This document shows, one piece after another, positions 43,144 to 51,056 of a stretch of 64,000 bases of DNA. Made by a program: the position numbers and the translations under genes. Source of the DNA: Streptomyces roseofulvus (GTDB taxonomy: Bacteria; Actinomycetota; Actinomycetes; Streptomycetales; Streptomycetaceae); contig NZ_BAAAWE010000001.1 in the NCBI RefSeq assembly GCF_039534915.1, positions 6,386,001-6,450,000 of the forward strand, given 5' to 3'. Within the stretch, counting starts at the first letter, position 1; every line of letters starts with the position of its first letter. The notes under the pieces were generated by a model that saw only the letters and a program-made list of their open reading frames with translations, ran no database searches and was not told the DNA's origin.

Positions 43144-43681
43144 TTCAAGTTCTTCATGGCCTACCCGGGCGTCTTCTACTCGGACGACGGGCAGATCCTG
43201 CGGGCCATGCAGGTGGCCGCGGGGTCCGGCGGGCTGATCATGATGCACGCGGAGAACGGCATCGCGATCGACGTCCTGGTGGAGCAGGCCCTGGCACGGG
43301 GCGAGACGGACCCCCGCTACCACGGGGAGGTCCGCAAGGCCCTGCTGGAGGCGGAGGCCACGCACCGGGCGATCCAGCTGGCCCGGGTGGCGGGCTCGCC
43401 GCTGTACGTCGTCCACGTGTCGGCGCAGGAGGCGGTGGCCGAGCTGGCGGCGGCCCGGGACCTGGGTCTGCCGGTCTTCGGGGAGACCTGTCCGCAGTAC
43501 CTTTTCCTGTCGACGGACAACCTGGCGGAGCCGGACTTCGAGGGCGCGAAGTACGTGTGCTCGACGCCGCTGCGGCCGAAGGAGCACCAGGCGGCGCTGT
43601 GGCGGGGCCTGCGGACGAACGACCTCCAGGTGGTCTCCACCGACCACTGCCCCTTCTGCTTCGTCGGACAGAAGGAGCTGC
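43144..43681 (+). pseudogene. hydA: middle fragment of dihydropyrimidinase
   Basis: In frame from TTCAAG at 43144 the sequence encodes FKFFMAYPGVFYSDDGQILR and onward through HAEN, HVSAQEA and the metal Asp of VSTDHCPFCFVGQKEL, corresponding to residues 151-329 of the complete copy. It then departs abruptly into unrelated sequence. 43234-43634 is identical to the complete copy, while the flanks 43144-43233 and 43635-43681 use different, C-ending codons. Joined to 20605-21072 through TTCAAG it restores a continuous reading frame. The last third of the gene is missing. Confidence 0.9.
43234..43634 (+). repeat. 401-bp perfect direct repeat, copy 2 (in hydA fragment)
   Basis: Identical to 21767-22167 by direct reading, with sharply diverging but still homologous flanks on both sides. 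Confidence 0.9.
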
Positions 43682-43745
43682 TGACCGCTGCCGGAGAGGC
43701 GGAGGGGCGGCCGGGAAGATCCGGTCGCCCCCGGTCTCGGGGCGG

Positions 43746-45990: not shown

Positions 45991-46569
45991 ATGAGGCATG
46001 TGAACCATCAGTCGGAACGCGTCCGGCACCTGCACACACTCGGTCCCCACGGCACCAACCTGGAAGCCGCCTCCCACGAATGGCTCCGGCGCAACGGCGT
46101 CCGGGGAACGGTGGAGCTGCACGCCTCGATCGAGTCCGCGCTCGAAGCCGTCCCGGACGACGGACAGCACGCGCTGGTCGCCTGCGCGGTCTACCCCGCG
46201 CTGCACACCCTGGTCTTCGGGAACCTGCACCGCCTGCAGATGATCGACAGCTTCGTCATGCCGACGCACAACATGGTGCTCGCCACCGGCGGCACGGCCC
46301 GGCCGGCGACCGTCGCCTCCCACCCGGCGCCGAAGGGTCTCATCCCCGCCGGCGCGGAGTTCCGGGAGGTGCTGAGCAACTCCCAGGCCGCCATCGACTG
46401 CGCCGAGGGACGCGTCGAGGGCTGCATCACCACCATCGTCGCGGCCGAGAACCACGGACTGCGCGTGGTACGGGACTTCGGCGCCGTGCCCATGGTGTTC
46501 ACCGTCCACCAGGTGCTGGCGGTCGGCGCCCAGACCGAGCGCCCGCTCCCGGCGGGAGCCGCGCTGTGA
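45991..46569 (+). CDS. prephenate dehydratase-fold protein, possibly BacA-like prephenate decarboxylase
   Basis: A 192-residue stand-alone protein. LHTLGPHGTNLEAASHEWL (LGPHGT at 17-22) matches the first prephenate-dehydratase motif, and SNSQAAIDCAEGRVEGCITT then AAENHGLRVVRDFG the last part of the domain. The TRF motif essential for dehydratases is absent: the equivalent place reads VPMVFTVHQVLAVG. No ACT domain is present. Length and missing TRF recall BacA/AerD/SalX-type non-aromatizing prephenate decarboxylases. That reaction is inference; another 2-oxo acid-forming or binding role is possible. It is the first gene of a coupled operon. Confidence 0.7.
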   Translation: MRHVNHQSERVRHLHTLGPHGTNLEAASHEWLRRNGVRGTVELHASIESALEAVPDDGQHALVACAVYPALHTLVFGNLHRLQMIDSFVMPTHNMVLATGGTARPATVASHPAPKGLIPAGAEFREVLSNSQAAIDCAEGRVEGCITTIVAAENHGLRVVRDFGAVPMVFTVHQVLAVGAQTERPLPAGAAL

Positions 46570-47858
46570 ACCCCGCGACCGCTCCCGTCCCGGCCGGCCT
46601 GCTCGCCGACGCCGACGAACTGACCGGCTCCCTCGTCCCGATGGTCGACCGCTTCCGGGCACGGCAGGAGGACGACGGGACCGTCCCCGACGCCACCGAC
46701 GCGGACCGCGCGCTGCTCGCCCGCATCCGCGACGAGGCGTGCGCCTGGTACGCCCGGCGCGGCGGGGACGCGCAGGGCAGCGCGCTGGCGGCCGACGTCG
46801 ACGACTGGCTCGCGGCCGGCCTGGACACCCGGCCCCACTTCGCCCGCTCGCGGGACGCCCTGCGGGTGCCCGAGGACGGCGAGGCCGTCTTCTTCCTCGC
46901 GCCGCTGCAGAGCACCAACAGCGCGCCGCCCGTCGGCAAGCGGCTGGACTGCTTCTTCGCCCTGCGCAAGGAGCCCGCCGCCCTGCCCGAGCTGGCCGTG
47001 TCGTATCCGCACCCCAAGAACAACTGCCAGTCGCTGGTGCTGATCACCGGCAGCGCCGGGTTCCGGCAGGGCAACTGCCTGGTCTTCTTCCCGGAGAACG
47101 TGGCCGCTCACGACAAGATCACCGAGCAGCCCTACGCCATGTTCTTCTACAACAAGATGCGGAAGATCCACGAGACCTACGCGCTCACCGGGGCGGAGGC
47201 CGTCCTGACGCCGGAGTCCCTGCCCCGGGCGTCCACGGGCCTCGACGCGGACGTGTGCTTCGAGGCCCGCGCCATCTGGGGCTATCTCCACGACTCGATG
47301 CACTACCAGGGACTCTGGCCGTTCGACGAGCACATCTCGCTGAAGATGAACTGGTTCGTCGGCCTGCTGGAGGAGATCAAGGTCGATGCCAAGACCGTCC
47401 TCGCCTGCCAGGACGGCGACGTCGTCCCGTTCGCCGAGGAGCAGACCGACATGATCCTGCTGGAGCGGATCTTCCGCTACCCGCAGGCGGACGACGCCAC
47501 CCGCAACTTCGACTCGGGCACCGGGGTCTTCCTCTACTCCTGGCTGCGCGAGCACGGCGCGCTGGCCGGCGACCCTGCCGGCGGCGCCCTGCTCCGCTTC
47601 GACCGGGCCAAGGCCCTCGACGCCCTGCGGGAGTTCGTCGCCACGGTCGAGAAGCTGGAGGCCGAGGTCACGACCGACGACGAGTACCGGGCGGCGGCCA
47701 GGGAACTCGTACGCCGGTACCTTCCCGCCCCCGAGCCCGCGCCCGCCGGCGCGCCCCGGCAGCGGTACGCCTTCACCGAGGACCAGCGGGTGCTGCTGCG
47801 GGCCAAGCAGGGCCTCGACCGGATGCCCGCGCTGGAGTTCGAGCGCGCCGAATGGTGA
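46566..47858 (+). CDS. DUF6421-like protein, possible metal-dependent enzyme
   Basis: A 430-residue soluble protein whose GTG lies in the stop of the previous gene. Recognisable blocks: FLAPLQSTNSAPPVGKRLDC, PHPKNNCQSLVLITGSAGFR, EQPYAMFFYNKMRKIHETYA, YLHDSMHYQGLWPFDEHISL and LLEEIKVDAKTVLACQDGD. The HDSMH (His242, His246) followed by EEIKVD (269-274) would fit a metal site, but no known metalloenzyme family is certain. I link it to DUF6421 from memory. In this operon it may be the tailoring enzyme. Confidence 0.7.
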   Translation: MNPATAPVPAGLLADADELTGSLVPMVDRFRARQEDDGTVPDATDADRALLARIRDEACAWYARRGGDAQGSALAADVDDWLAAGLDTRPHFARSRDALRVPEDGEAVFFLAPLQSTNSAPPVGKRLDCFFALRKEPAALPELAVSYPHPKNNCQSLVLITGSAGFRQGNCLVFFPENVAAHDKITEQPYAMFFYNKMRKIHETYALTGAEAVLTPESLPRASTGLDADVCFEARAIWGYLHDSMHYQGLWPFDEHISLKMNWFVGLLEEIKVDAKTVLACQDGDVVPFAEEQTDMILLERIFRYPQADDATRNFDSGTGVFLYSWLREHGALAGDPAGGALLRFDRAKALDALREFVATVEKLEAEVTTDDEYRAAARELVRRYLPAPEPAPAGAPRQRYAFTEDQRVLLRAKQGLDRMPALEFERAEW

Positions 47859-48868
47859 CGGACGGACCCCCGCGCACCCACCGGGGCGGGCTCCTCGTGG
47901 TGCCCGCCCTGTCGGTGCTGATGATCGCACTGCTGGCGGCCGGCTGGCTGCTGGCGGGCCATCTCGTCGACGGCGCACCGCCGTTGCTGGTGGCGGCGGG
48001 CCGGACCGCGGCCAGCTTCGCGGTCATCACCGTCGTCGCCCTGCTGCACCCCCGGCTGCGGTCCGAGGCCCGTACCGCGGCCGCCCGCGGCGGGAGCGTG
48101 GCGCTGCTGGCCTTCCTCGGCTTCTTCGCGTACTACTCCGGGACCCTGCTCGGGACCGGCTTCATCGGAGCCTCCCGGGTCGGCCTGATCGTCTCCCTGC
48201 TGCCCTGCCTCACCTTCGTGATCGGAGCCCTCGCCTTCCGCGAGCCCTCCACCCGGCGCAAGGTCCTGGGCACCGTACTGGCCGTGGTCGCGGCCTTCGG
48301 ATACGCCCTGGCCGACGCCTCCGCCGGCGAGGCATCCGGGACCGGCGGCGGCGCCCTGGTGAGCGGGGGCCTGCTGGCACTCGGCGGCACCTTCACCTAC
48401 GCCGTGTACGGCTACGTCTACCGGCGGCGCATGGCGGACCTGTCACCGGTCGCGTCCCTGCCCGCCATCACCGGCGCGGGCACGGTCATGCTGGGACTGA
48501 CGGTCGTCCTGTTCGTCCCGCTGGGCGGAGTCTCCCCGGCCGACTGGGGCGGCATCGCCGCCCTCGGCGTGCTCCTCACCGCGCCGGTCTTCCTCATCTC
48601 GCACGAACTCATCCTGCGCAAGGGCCCGTTGTTCACCTCCGCCCTCGCGCTCGTCGTACCGTTCCTGGTGCGACTGGGCGAGTGGGCCCTGGGCCGCGAG
48701 ACCGCGCCGGGACCGCTCGTGCTGCTGCTGCTCCTGCTGTGCGCGGGCGGCGTGTGGCTCACCATCGGCGGCGCCCCCGCCCCCGGGCGCGCCACGACCG
48801 GCGCGGCGGAGGACGAGGAGTCCGCCGGGGAAACGGCCGGGGCGCGCACCCGGCAGGAAACATCGTGA
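47852..48868 (+). CDS. EamA/DMT-family exporter
   Basis: A 338-residue membrane protein with ten predicted helices in two EamA repeats, the first around LLVVPALSVLMIALLAAGWL and GFIGASRVGLIVSLLPCLTF, the second beginning LLALGGTFTYAVYGYVY. The hydrophilic C-terminal tail is about 35 residues. DMT proteins of this kind export amino acids and small metabolites. ATG 47852 overlaps the previous stop by 7 bp. It is the likely efflux and self-protection protein of the pathway. Confidence 0.85.
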   Translation: MVTDGPPRTHRGGLLVVPALSVLMIALLAAGWLLAGHLVDGAPPLLVAAGRTAASFAVITVVALLHPRLRSEARTAAARGGSVALLAFLGFFAYYSGTLLGTGFIGASRVGLIVSLLPCLTFVIGALAFREPSTRRKVLGTVLAVVAAFGYALADASAGEASGTGGGALVSGGLLALGGTFTYAVYGYVYRRRMADLSPVASLPAITGAGTVMLGLTVVLFVPLGGVSPADWGGIAALGVLLTAPVFLISHELILRKGPLFTSALALVVPFLVRLGEWALGRETAPGPLVLLLLLLCAGGVWLTIGGAPAPGRATTGAAEDEESAGETAGARTRQETS

Positions 48869-50175
48869 CGGCAAAGGACCTGGTGATGACGACCGACAGC
48901 CCCCGCCCCACCCTCGTGCTGGTCTACCAGCGCGCCTCGCTCCCCTGGGTCTTCGAGGGCGCGGAGCGGGCCGGCATCGACCTCGTGCTGGTGCCCCGGC
49001 CCGACGAGGCGGTGTCCGAGGACCGGCTGCCGCCCGCAGTGGTGGAGCTCCTGCGGCTGGACATCGAGGCCGACCGGGCCGGCGCGCTGGACGCCCTGCG
49101 GCGGCGGTACGAGCAGAACGCCTTCCAGGGCGTCGTCACGCTCTTCGACCCCGCCGTGCCCTTCGTCGCCGAGGCCGCGGAGCTGCTCGGGCTGCCCGGC
49201 ATCGGCCGGGACGCGGCGCTCGGCGCGCAGGACAAGCGGGTCATGCGGGAGCGCCTGGCCGCCGCGGGCCTCAACGTGCCGGGCTTCGTCCGGCTGGACC
49301 GGCCGGCCGACTGGGCGGAGGCGGCGCGGCTGACCTTCCCCGTCGTGGTGAAGCCGGCCCACGGCTTCTCCAGCCTCGGCGTCACCAAGGCGGACACCCC
49401 GCAGAGCCTGAAGAGCGTCGTGGACGAGGTGTGGCGGACCAGCGAGGGCAAGCTCGGACAGGTGGACGGGCTGGTGGTCGAGGAGTACCTCGACGGCCCC
49501 GAGTTCGCCGTCGAGTCCCTCGCCCAGGACGGTGCCGTACGGATCCTCACCATCGGCTACAAGGGCGACCCCCAGGGGCCGCACTTCGAGGAGGGCGTCT
49601 ACCGCGCGCCGGCCGCGCTGCCCGAGGCGGTCCGGGACGCCGTCCTGCGGGAGGTGACCGCCGCGCACAAGGCCCTCGGCATCACGGACGGCCCCACCCA
49701 CACCGAGCTGCGGCTGCGCGGCGGCACGACCCCGTACCTGCTGGAGATGGGGGCCCGGATCGGCGGCTCGGGCGTCTCCCATCACGTCGTCTCCGGGGTG
49801 ACCGGCATCGACTTCGCCGCGCAGGCCCTGCGCCTCGCCGCCGGCCTCGGCGCCGGACTCCCGGTCTCCGACGGGCTGCCGGCACCCGTCGGGGCCGCGG
49901 CCAACTACATCGTCCCCTGCGGCGGTCACGGACGGATCACCGCGATCCACGGCCTGGACGCACTGCGGGACGACCCCCGGGTCGACCACGTCGTGCAGAT
50001 GCTCTTCCCCGGCGACGTCGTGCGGCCCTACCCCGACTTCACCGGCTACCCCGCGTTCGTGCTGTCCCGGCACGAGGACCTCGCCGAGACCGAGGAGTTC
50101 CACCGCTTCCTGGAGCGGTCCATCCGCATCGAGTACGCCGAGGTCGCCGACCATGGCCACGAGGGGCAGGCATGA
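48865..50175 (+). CDS. ATP-grasp ligase (L-amino acid ligase-like)
   Basis: A 436-residue ATP-grasp enzyme. GAQDKRVMRERLAAAGLNVP and FPVVVKPAHGFSSLGVTKAD form the ATP-binding subdomain, VVEEYLDGPEFAVESL the hinge, and THTELRLRGGTTPYLLEMGA followed by RIGGSG the Mg-binding Glu/Arg region. The pattern THTEL...LEMGARIGG is that of BacD/Lal-type ligases joining an amino acid carboxyl to an amine. GTG 48865 overlaps the exporter stop; ATG 48886 with AAGGA upstream is an alternative start. It would couple the pathway's amino acid to a partner. Confidence 0.85.
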   Translation: MTAKDLVMTTDSPRPTLVLVYQRASLPWVFEGAERAGIDLVLVPRPDEAVSEDRLPPAVVELLRLDIEADRAGALDALRRRYEQNAFQGVVTLFDPAVPFVAEAAELLGLPGIGRDAALGAQDKRVMRERLAAAGLNVPGFVRLDRPADWAEAARLTFPVVVKPAHGFSSLGVTKADTPQSLKSVVDEVWRTSEGKLGQVDGLVVEEYLDGPEFAVESLAQDGAVRILTIGYKGDPQGPHFEEGVYRAPAALPEAVRDAVLREVTAAHKALGITDGPTHTELRLRGGTTPYLLEMGARIGGSGVSHHVVSGVTGIDFAAQALRLAAGLGAGLPVSDGLPAPVGAAANYIVPCGGHGRITAIHGLDALRDDPRVDHVVQMLFPGDVVRPYPDFTGYPAFVLSRHEDLAETEEFHRFLERSIRIEYAEVADHGHEGQA

Positions 50176-51056
50176 CCACCACCGCGTTCGACGACCGTGA
50201 CGGCGTGATCTGGCTGGACGGCGCGTTCGTGCCGTGGCGCGACGCCCGCCTGCACGTCCTGTCCCACGGACTGCACTACGGCGGCGGCGTCTTCGAGGGC
50301 GTCCGCGTCTACGGCGGCCGCGCCTTCAAGCCGGTCGAGCACTTCGAGCGCCTCCACGCCTCGGCACGGGAGCTGGGCTTCCGCGTCCCCTTCGACGTCA
50401 CCGAGCTGGACGCCGCGATGCGGGAGACCGTCCGGCGCCAGGACATCGTCGACGGGTACGTCAGGCCCGTGGCCTGGCGGGGCAGCGAGCAGCTCAGCGT
50501 CTCCGGAGCGGGCACGTCCGTCCACGTCGCGCTCGCCGCGTGGGAGTGGCCGCACGTCTTCTCCGGCGACGCGCGCAGCCGCGGCATCCGGCTGCGCACC
50601 TCCCGGTGGCGGCGTCCCGCCCCCGACACCGCGCCGGTACGGGCCAAGGCGGCGTCGCTGTACAACATCTGCACCCTCGCCCGCGACGAGGCCGAGGCGG
50701 CCGGATACGACGACGCGCTCCTGCTGGACTTCCGCGGACACCTGGCGGAGGCCACCGGGGCCAACCTCTTCCTCGTGATCGACGGCGCCCTGCACACGCC
50801 GACCCCGGACACCTTCCTCGACGGCATCACCCGGCAGACCGTCCTGTCCCTCGCCGCGGACCTGGGGATCACCGTCCACGAACGGCACATCGGGCCCGAG
50901 GAACTGGACCGCGCCGACGAGCTCTTCCTCACCGGCACGGCCTACGAGGTGCAGCCGGTGCGCGCCGTGGACGCCCGCTCCTACGAGGTCGGAAGCGTCA
51001 CCACGGCACTCTCCAAGGCGTACACCGACCTGACCCGCGCCGTCACCGCGCCCTAG
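50172..51056 (+). CDS. class IV (branched-chain-type) aminotransferase
   Basis: A 294-residue PLP enzyme. LSHGLHYGGGVFEGVRVYGG is the BCAT start, RAKAASLYNICTLARDEAEA holds the Schiff-base Lys159, LLLDFRGHLAEATGANLFLV the cofactor phosphate loop, and DELFLTGTAYEVQPVRAVD the C-terminal motif. It would convert a 2-oxo acid produced in the pathway to an L-amino acid, the role BacF plays in bacilysin synthesis, though BacF is a different fold class. It overlaps the ligase gene (ATGA-type) and ends the operon next to an inverted repeat. Confidence 0.88.
   Translation: MTTTAFDDRDGVIWLDGAFVPWRDARLHVLSHGLHYGGGVFEGVRVYGGRAFKPVEHFERLHASARELGFRVPFDVTELDAAMRETVRRQDIVDGYVRPVAWRGSEQLSVSGAGTSVHVALAAWEWPHVFSGDARSRGIRLRTSRWRRPAPDTAPVRAKAASLYNICTLARDEAEAAGYDDALLLDFRGHLAEATGANLFLVIDGALHTPTPDTFLDGITRQTVLSLAADLGITVHERHIGPEELDRADELFLTGTAYEVQPVRAVDARSYEVGSVTTALSKAYTDLTRAVTAP

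Follow-up and report, generated by a model that had tools for sequence, protein, structure and literature searches.

A conserved five-gene Streptomyces operon as a candidate bacilysin-like dipeptide route with a different oxidation step

Which product would be made by an operon that brings together a prephenate-dehydratase-like protein, an aminotransferase, an amino-acid ligase and an exporter, and is it the product of the bacilysin operon that such a set recalls? The question is raised by five genes of Streptomyces roseofulvus, labelled A to E in their order, which occupy positions 45991-51056 of the forward strand of a 64,000-nt stretch (the window) of a genome that consists of a single contig of 8.2 Mb. 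A first-pass annotation of this DNA had described the genes as overlapping from stop to start and had compared them with bacilysin synthesis. The open reading frames confirmed all five genes and the overlaps, which are of 4 bases at most junctions; D may also start later (ATG 48886), which would leave a 17-base gap after C. Our preferred answer, for which we see the case as evenly balanced, is that the operon would form a self-contained pathway to a secreted dipeptide carrying an oxidised non-proteinogenic amino acid derived from prephenate.

Results

The best-scoring Pfam families were EamA for C (52.5 bits) and Aminotran_4 for E, while D contained ATP-grasp_4, ATPgrasp_N and LAL_C2. Besides these ATP-grasp and LAL_C2 domains, D showed a near-full-length match to the L-amino acid ligase BL00235 (3vot; 409 residues aligned, E 1.9e-92). 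Its similarity to BacD, in contrast, reached at best E 7.9e-14, with 42.7 bits against a cut-off of 850 for the NCBIfam BacD model. We assign D to the BL00235-like rather than the BacD-like L-amino acid ligases and predict that it synthesizes dipeptides. E exceeded three NCBIfam cut-offs for branched-chain aminotransferases and is classified as an IlvE-type aminotransferase, and C is classified as an EamA exporter.

In the bacilysin operon (bacA-bacG), too, a prephenate-fold enzyme, an aminotransferase, an ATP-grasp dipeptide ligase and an exporter stand together in parallel roles. The first-pass annotation was correct that the BacB, BacC and BacG families are absent from the five genes (Pfam); a DUF6421/PolE-type protein is found instead. 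Its parallel with bacilysin holds for the roles and fails for the parts: the aminotransferase is of class IV (IlvE-type), the ligase BL00235-like, the exporter of the EamA type and B a member of an oxidase family, while A lies outside the clade of BacA-annotated proteins, TdaC being its nearest named relative that we found. Therefore, although the parallel roles of A, C, D and E would fit the bacilysin pathway proper with anticapsin made by other enzymes, we regard this as very improbable: the families that Pfam assigned to the five genes include neither a cupin nor a dehydrogenase/reductase, D is far closer to BL00235 than to BacD, and E is a class IV enzyme whereas BacF is of fold-type I, as the available text of PMC9147277 has it. 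Cupin genes that might stand in for BacB near the Streptomyces operons yielded one weak match, which lies upstream of A in L048 (35% over 55 residues), and none at the other loci.

Table 1. Genes of the operon and the motif of gene B, in window coordinates.
Feature	Position (strand)	Length	Start and overlap	Assignment
Gene A	45991..46569 (+)	192 aa		Prephenate-dehydratase fold (TdaC/BacA-like), no TRF motif
Gene B	46566..47858 (+)		GTG 46566; 4-base overlap with A	DUF6421 (PolE family)
Motif of gene B	47289..47372 (+)			HDxxH-x22-E, codons H242-E269 (H242, D243, H246, E269)
Gene C	47852..48868 (+)		ATG 47852 (7-base overlap) or GTG 47855 (4-base)	EamA/DMT-type exporter
Gene D	48865..50175 (+)		GTG 48865; 4-base overlap	ATP-grasp L-amino acid ligase, BL00235-like
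Gene E	50172..51056 (+)		ATG 50172; 4-base overlap	Class IV (IlvE-type) aminotransferase

With 192 aa and its predicted fold, A matches the stand-alone prephenate-dehydratase-fold proteins of about 200 aa to which BacA belongs, and its length leaves no room for an ACT domain. The available text of PMC9147277 gives 204 aa for BacA and is our source for its chemistry, a non-aromatising decarboxylation of prephenate. The best Pfam family of A was PDT, at 20.2 bits below the cut-off of 25.2. A PDB sequence search with A returned no match, and one with its profile returned a single match at E 0.49. When the AlphaFold model of A (pLDDT, the predicted local distance difference test, 82.8) was used in a fold search, prephenate dehydratases came first (3mwb: Z 14.8, root-mean-square deviation 4.5, 172 aligned residues, VIA-align), and GqqA, called a quorum-quenching acylase, was second by Z at 12.1. 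Many periplasmic binding proteins also share this fold, which counts for reading A as a plain binding protein. Such a role is unlikely, given that the top matches are prephenate dehydratases and given the enzymatic context of the gene.

The place of A was then sought in a tree of 28 A, 12 BacA-like, 3 third-clade and 10 PheA rows, drawn midpoint-rooted. The PheA rows are frames chosen by their TRF motif and hence are no control for its absence; four PheA loci without a TRF frame (L073, L077, L078, L081) and the duplicates L023 and L024 were left out, and L035 gave no A match. The program warned of long branches meeting, and the row of L054 includes residues past its stop. The ten PheA proteins split off with 100/100 support, and a separate clade of 12 proteins (96/90), two of them annotated BacA, did not include A. 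The clade of A itself (97/92) contained the protein that occupies the tdaC position in Phaeobacter piscinae (L059). A further clade of short prephenate-dehydratase-like proteins (L034, L037, L040) stood apart from both A and the BacA-annotated proteins. Given this topology and the subthreshold PDT score, an ordinary PheA was rejected as the identity of A. Grouping with PheA or with an unrelated binding-protein family, which the first-pass annotation had named as contrary to its proposal, was not what we found.

The same annotation had reported that A lacks the TRF motif, and this extends to the entire clade (0 of 28 A rows). At position 171 of A, 25 rows have T and 3 have S. MAFFT placed T171 at the TRF Thr and the profile alignment ended before T171, so the register is uncertain and the sequence does not decide between decarboxylase and dehydratase. 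In a profile comparison, A was closer to the BacA-annotated clade (E 2.7e-27) than to PheA (2.3e-11). No BacA model of NCBIfam matched even the two BacA-annotated proteins, and that scan therefore says nothing about A.

By these comparisons the nearest named relative that we found for A is TdaC of the Phaeobacter tropodithietic acid cluster, not BacA (42% identity in the alignment; 46% over 163 residues by tblastn). The gene name tdaC is carried in P. gallaeciensis records and is so described in the available text of PMC11595833. The tdaC neighbourhood differs from our operon: its genes encode a glutathione S-transferase, a thioesterase and an acyl-CoA dehydrogenase, and its 14.5 kb contained no DUF6421 match by tblastn and no annotated ligase or aminotransferase.

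The kinship with TdaC bears on an alternative that takes A for an aromatising prephenate dehydratase free of feedback control; E would turn the phenylpyruvate into L-Phe, and Phe would be oxidised by B, built into a dipeptide by D and exported by C. TdaC belongs to tropone synthesis, which begins from phenylacetate. The fold of A and its weak profile match to PDT are compatible with this alternative, as is the MAFFT placement of T171 at the dehydratase Thr, and B, as an Fe/pterin enzyme, resembles phenylalanine hydroxylase in its cofactor. Moreover, the available text of PMC11481866 reads the DAHP synthase and prephenate dehydratase genes of tropolone clusters as a possible precursor supply. 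Weighed against the missing TRF motif, the PDT score, the separation from PheA in the tree, the profile that lies nearer to the BacA-annotated clade and a PheA already present in the genome, we consider an aromatising A unlikely.

What could take the place of BacB, BacC and BacG? The first-pass annotation had treated B as an uncharacterised protein, a view that is outdated: the best Pfam family of B is DUF6421 (PF19985, 69 bits against a cut-off of 25), the family of the Fe/pterin oxidase PolE. As far as the available text of PMC12614342 goes, PolE is an Fe- and tetrahydrobiopterin-dependent oxidase that converts L-Ile to E-3,4-dehydro-isoleucine; the family comprises about 10,000 proteins with a common motif HE/DxxHx(21-23)E, proposed to bind Fe and pterin; and many DUF6421 genes sit with amino-acid-modifying enzymes, this operon being unnamed there. 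PolE was the only characterised member that we found in print. B was compared with PolE through the family and its motif. It carries the motif as HDSMH-x22-E, with H242, D243, H246 and E269 unchanged across 16 rows; the pattern recurred in all 22 rows searched (20 distinct) and in 4/4 further homologues. A metal site is predicted in B, which likely supplies the oxidation step for which bacilysin synthesis has BacB, BacC and BacG. PolE differs in that it works with PolF on L-Ile in the nucleoside pathway to polyoxin, no such gene being present among the five, and B is a distant relative. The host genome has a second DUF6421 gene elsewhere (L085, G000:C1:1255876-1257180; 733 bits).

If the five genes form one pathway, they should be conserved together. 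All five were present in identical order in 12 distinct genomes (the window, L022, L025, L041-L048 and L050), including Amycolatopsis pithecellobii (L043); L023 and L024 duplicate the contigs of L042 and L048, respectively, and were not counted separately. A thirteenth genome (L049) has A to D, and E was not found. The same genes in the same order in 12 genomes are more than chance, and the joint conservation on which the first-pass annotation had staked its proposal is thus observed. Of six window genes flanking the operon, tested at 20 loci, any were found only in L025 and L041. Since the flanks are mostly unshared, the conserved unit is the operon and not a larger island. Upstream of it, an open frame at window positions 43156-43700 resembles a shortened hydantoinase by eye; it has a 94% match over 175 residues in L025 and a longer relative in L032.

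Among 297 Streptomycetaceae genomes, 19 had A matches at E 1e-5, and in five of them, our genome included, A was at least 73% identical. Full-length B occurred in 5/297, exactly those five. A sixth genome (G208, L109) retains a B remnant of about the first 130 residues, with no match to A, C, D or E within 14 kb around it. A scan of named genomes for A returned 18 loci, the closest relative being that of Streptomyces sp. NRRL F-5727 (91%). With the best 8 candidates per genome scored, an A-profile search at E 1e-20 matched 1 of 396 Actinomycetota genomes, our own, so the cassette looks rare. Two other genomes (G077 and G207; L107, L108) have a BL00235-like ligase, 53-54% identical to D, whose neighbours are, by eye, an apparent MFS exporter and a regulator of the SARP type; with no A by tblastn, this is another possible dipeptide operon.

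A second form of the operon was found at seven Streptomyces loci (L051-L057). Genes for A, B, a SnoaL-like protein and an AzlC exporter are present in 7/7 and E in six (not found on the L052 stretch); AzlD was detected by Pfam in one (L053), and C and D had no match in any of the seven.

The core of the cassette also occurs outside Actinomycetota. In a plasmid collection, relatives of A were 44-48% identical to it. The operons that contain them include those of Staphylococcus xylosus (DMT exporter, ATP-grasp, A, DUF6421) and Pantoea sp. SS70 (EamA, ATP-grasp, A, DUF6421), the latter with the same four genes in Pantoea sp. X85; the gene order differs from that of the window. The B of X85 (L069, 6540-7693) has a short annotation, and its match is split into two parts that fall in different frames, so the gene may be interrupted in this strain. 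The Pseudoalteromonas xiamenensis locus (L062) encodes an aminotransferase, A, DUF6421, two ATP-grasps, a luciferase-like oxidoreductase, an NAD(P)H oxidoreductase and a DAHP synthase/chorismate mutase, and the Serpentinimonas operon A, DUF6421, SnoaL-like and LysE proteins. The S. xylosus and Pantoea SS70 ligases are 38% identical to D over 416-419 columns. Eight B matches were found in plasmids, and the five strongest, one being the query itself, all adjoin an A; of three weak ones (26-28%), two were inspected by tblastn and had no A nearby. Overall, B adjoins A in 24 of the 28 A-clade rows, many of which are close kin, so that these are not 24 independent events; L026, L058, L059 (TdaC) and L068 had no B match. 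With parts of it present in Staphylococcus, Pantoea and marine bacteria, the cassette looks like one that travels horizontally. The Proteus mirabilis locus (L068, NZ_OL790811.1) comes from a 4.08-Mb record that is filed as a plasmid and is probably a chromosome.

Is prephenate a plausible substrate? A fused DAHP synthase/chorismate mutase is encoded close to the A relative of Pseudoalteromonas (L062), a DAHP synthase close to that of Proteus (L068), and both a DAHP synthase and a chorismate mutase close to that of L026. That a DAHP synthase accompanies A relatives in three clusters, alone or with a chorismate mutase, supports prephenate as the substrate of A. RraA-like and cupin genes form a second partner set beside the A-clade gene in L026, L058 and L068, which come from a Streptomycetaceae genome, an alphaproteobacterial metagenome-assembled genome and P. 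mirabilis, two of them with DAHP synthase. The pairing with E recurs as well: an E-like aminotransferase was near an A cousin in 8 of 10 BacA-like loci in the first genome search, and is annotated beside A in L062 and beside BacA in L064 and L065.

Two neighbourhoods of A cousins were seen in passing. In L027, L030, L031, L064 and L065 a BacA-like protein adjoins a class IV aminotransferase, together with AMP-binding-like, DUF2000 and ornithine cyclodeaminase-like genes (called by Pfam on L031, by annotation in L064 and L065, otherwise by eye); the Streptomycetaceae copies include chorismate mutase and MqnA-like genes, and one copy is on a Pseudomonas aeruginosa plasmid. L028 (6193-12599) combines an A cousin and a class IV aminotransferase with nearby genes of the aconitase family and of the HMGL-like kind (isopropylmalate/homocitrate synthase type), as if the oxo acid were chain-extended.

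These neighbours must be weighed against the possibility that a modified branched-chain amino acid or its dipeptide is made, with E and B acting, like IlvE and PolE, on valine/isoleucine-type substrates and A on another 2-oxo acid or in binding only. The branched-chain aminotransferase scores of E, the specificity of PolE and the AzlC and AzlD exporter genes of the second-form operons all point in this direction. However, three clusters from different bacteria have a DAHP synthase next to A, some of them a chorismate mutase as well, and BacA-annotated proteins are also partnered by class IV aminotransferases. We judge a branched-chain product to be quite unlikely.

Discussion

We return to the prephenate-derived dipeptide. 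In the proposed route, A would act on prephenate with loss of CO2, most likely without aromatisation, to give a cyclohexadienyl 2-oxo acid. E would transaminate this oxo acid to an amino acid, as suggested by its family and by the recurrence of such aminotransferases beside A and beside BacA-annotated proteins. B would then desaturate or oxygenate the amino acid, by analogy with the chemistry of PolE on L-Ile (available text of PMC12614342). D, following its family function, would join the product to a second amino acid at the expense of ATP, and C would export it. The substrates in this scheme are those that we infer, whereas gene order, families, motif and conservation are observed. A dipeptide antimetabolite would fit: like bacilysin, it could enter the target through peptide permeases and undergo hydrolysis there. 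The first-pass annotation had proposed conversion of a 2-oxo acid to a non-proteinogenic amino acid with transamination, ligation and export. These roles hold by family, and what it lacked was the likely oxidation step by B. The pathway would thus work like bacilysin synthesis without being that pathway.

Going further, and tentatively, we can picture a horizontally spread cassette with its core in three phyla, in which a non-aromatising decarboxylase of the TdaC clade and a PolE-family oxidase acting on the non-aromatic ring would yield a cyclohexadienyl amino acid warhead that is capped by the ligase and exported, a new class of dipeptide antimetabolites. In the open-licence literature searched (DUF6421, prephenate decarboxylase, dihydrophenylalanine, Streptomyces L-amino acid ligases, non-aromatising prephenate enzymes, PolE/pterin), no description of this gene combination was found. 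Amiclenomycin/stravidin was considered as a product and set aside: the available portion of PMC13336041 mentions neither prephenate, stravidin biosynthesis, ATP-grasp nor DUF6421; amino-deoxychorismate genes were not searched for.

Several observations weigh against the prephenate-derived dipeptide. In the tree, A joins first the long-branched third clade (96/88) and not the BacA-annotated one, and T171 may preserve the hydroxyl that the Thr provides in the dehydratases, which would make aromatisation possible. The link to shikimate entry is limited to 3/28 A rows, and the DAHP synthases and chorismate mutases of these three clusters had no tblastn match in the window, L022, L025 or L041-L057. 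The IlvE-type E, together with AzlC in the sister operons, could mean a branched-chain product. B scores 69 bits where the other DUF6421 protein of the genome scores 733, and the activity of PolE on L-Val or L-Leu is below 5% of that on L-Ile (available text of PMC12614342); given this specificity and the distance of B within DUF6421, the family does not fix its substrate or even its cofactor. Its structure model is poor (mean pLDDT 65.7, and below 50 for residues 167-261, which include H242 and H246). D is only 27% identical to both Pseudoalteromonas ATP-grasps. C had no significant BLAST match to the S. xylosus and Pantoea exporters, so that the type of exporter is shared and the gene not clearly so. 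Finally, the Serpentinimonas and second-form operons have no D-like ligase, and a dipeptide is therefore not the end product everywhere.

The operon bears on two protein families. For DUF6421, it unites a ligase and an aminotransferase with a probable source of substrate, so that the oxidation target of another branch of the family can be tested. It could also help to establish the role of TdaC-type proteins, which go by the name of prephenate dehydratases yet lack the motif of these enzymes. With core genes common to Streptomyces, Staphylococcus and Pantoea, it would represent a small, clonable route to an unusual dipeptide.

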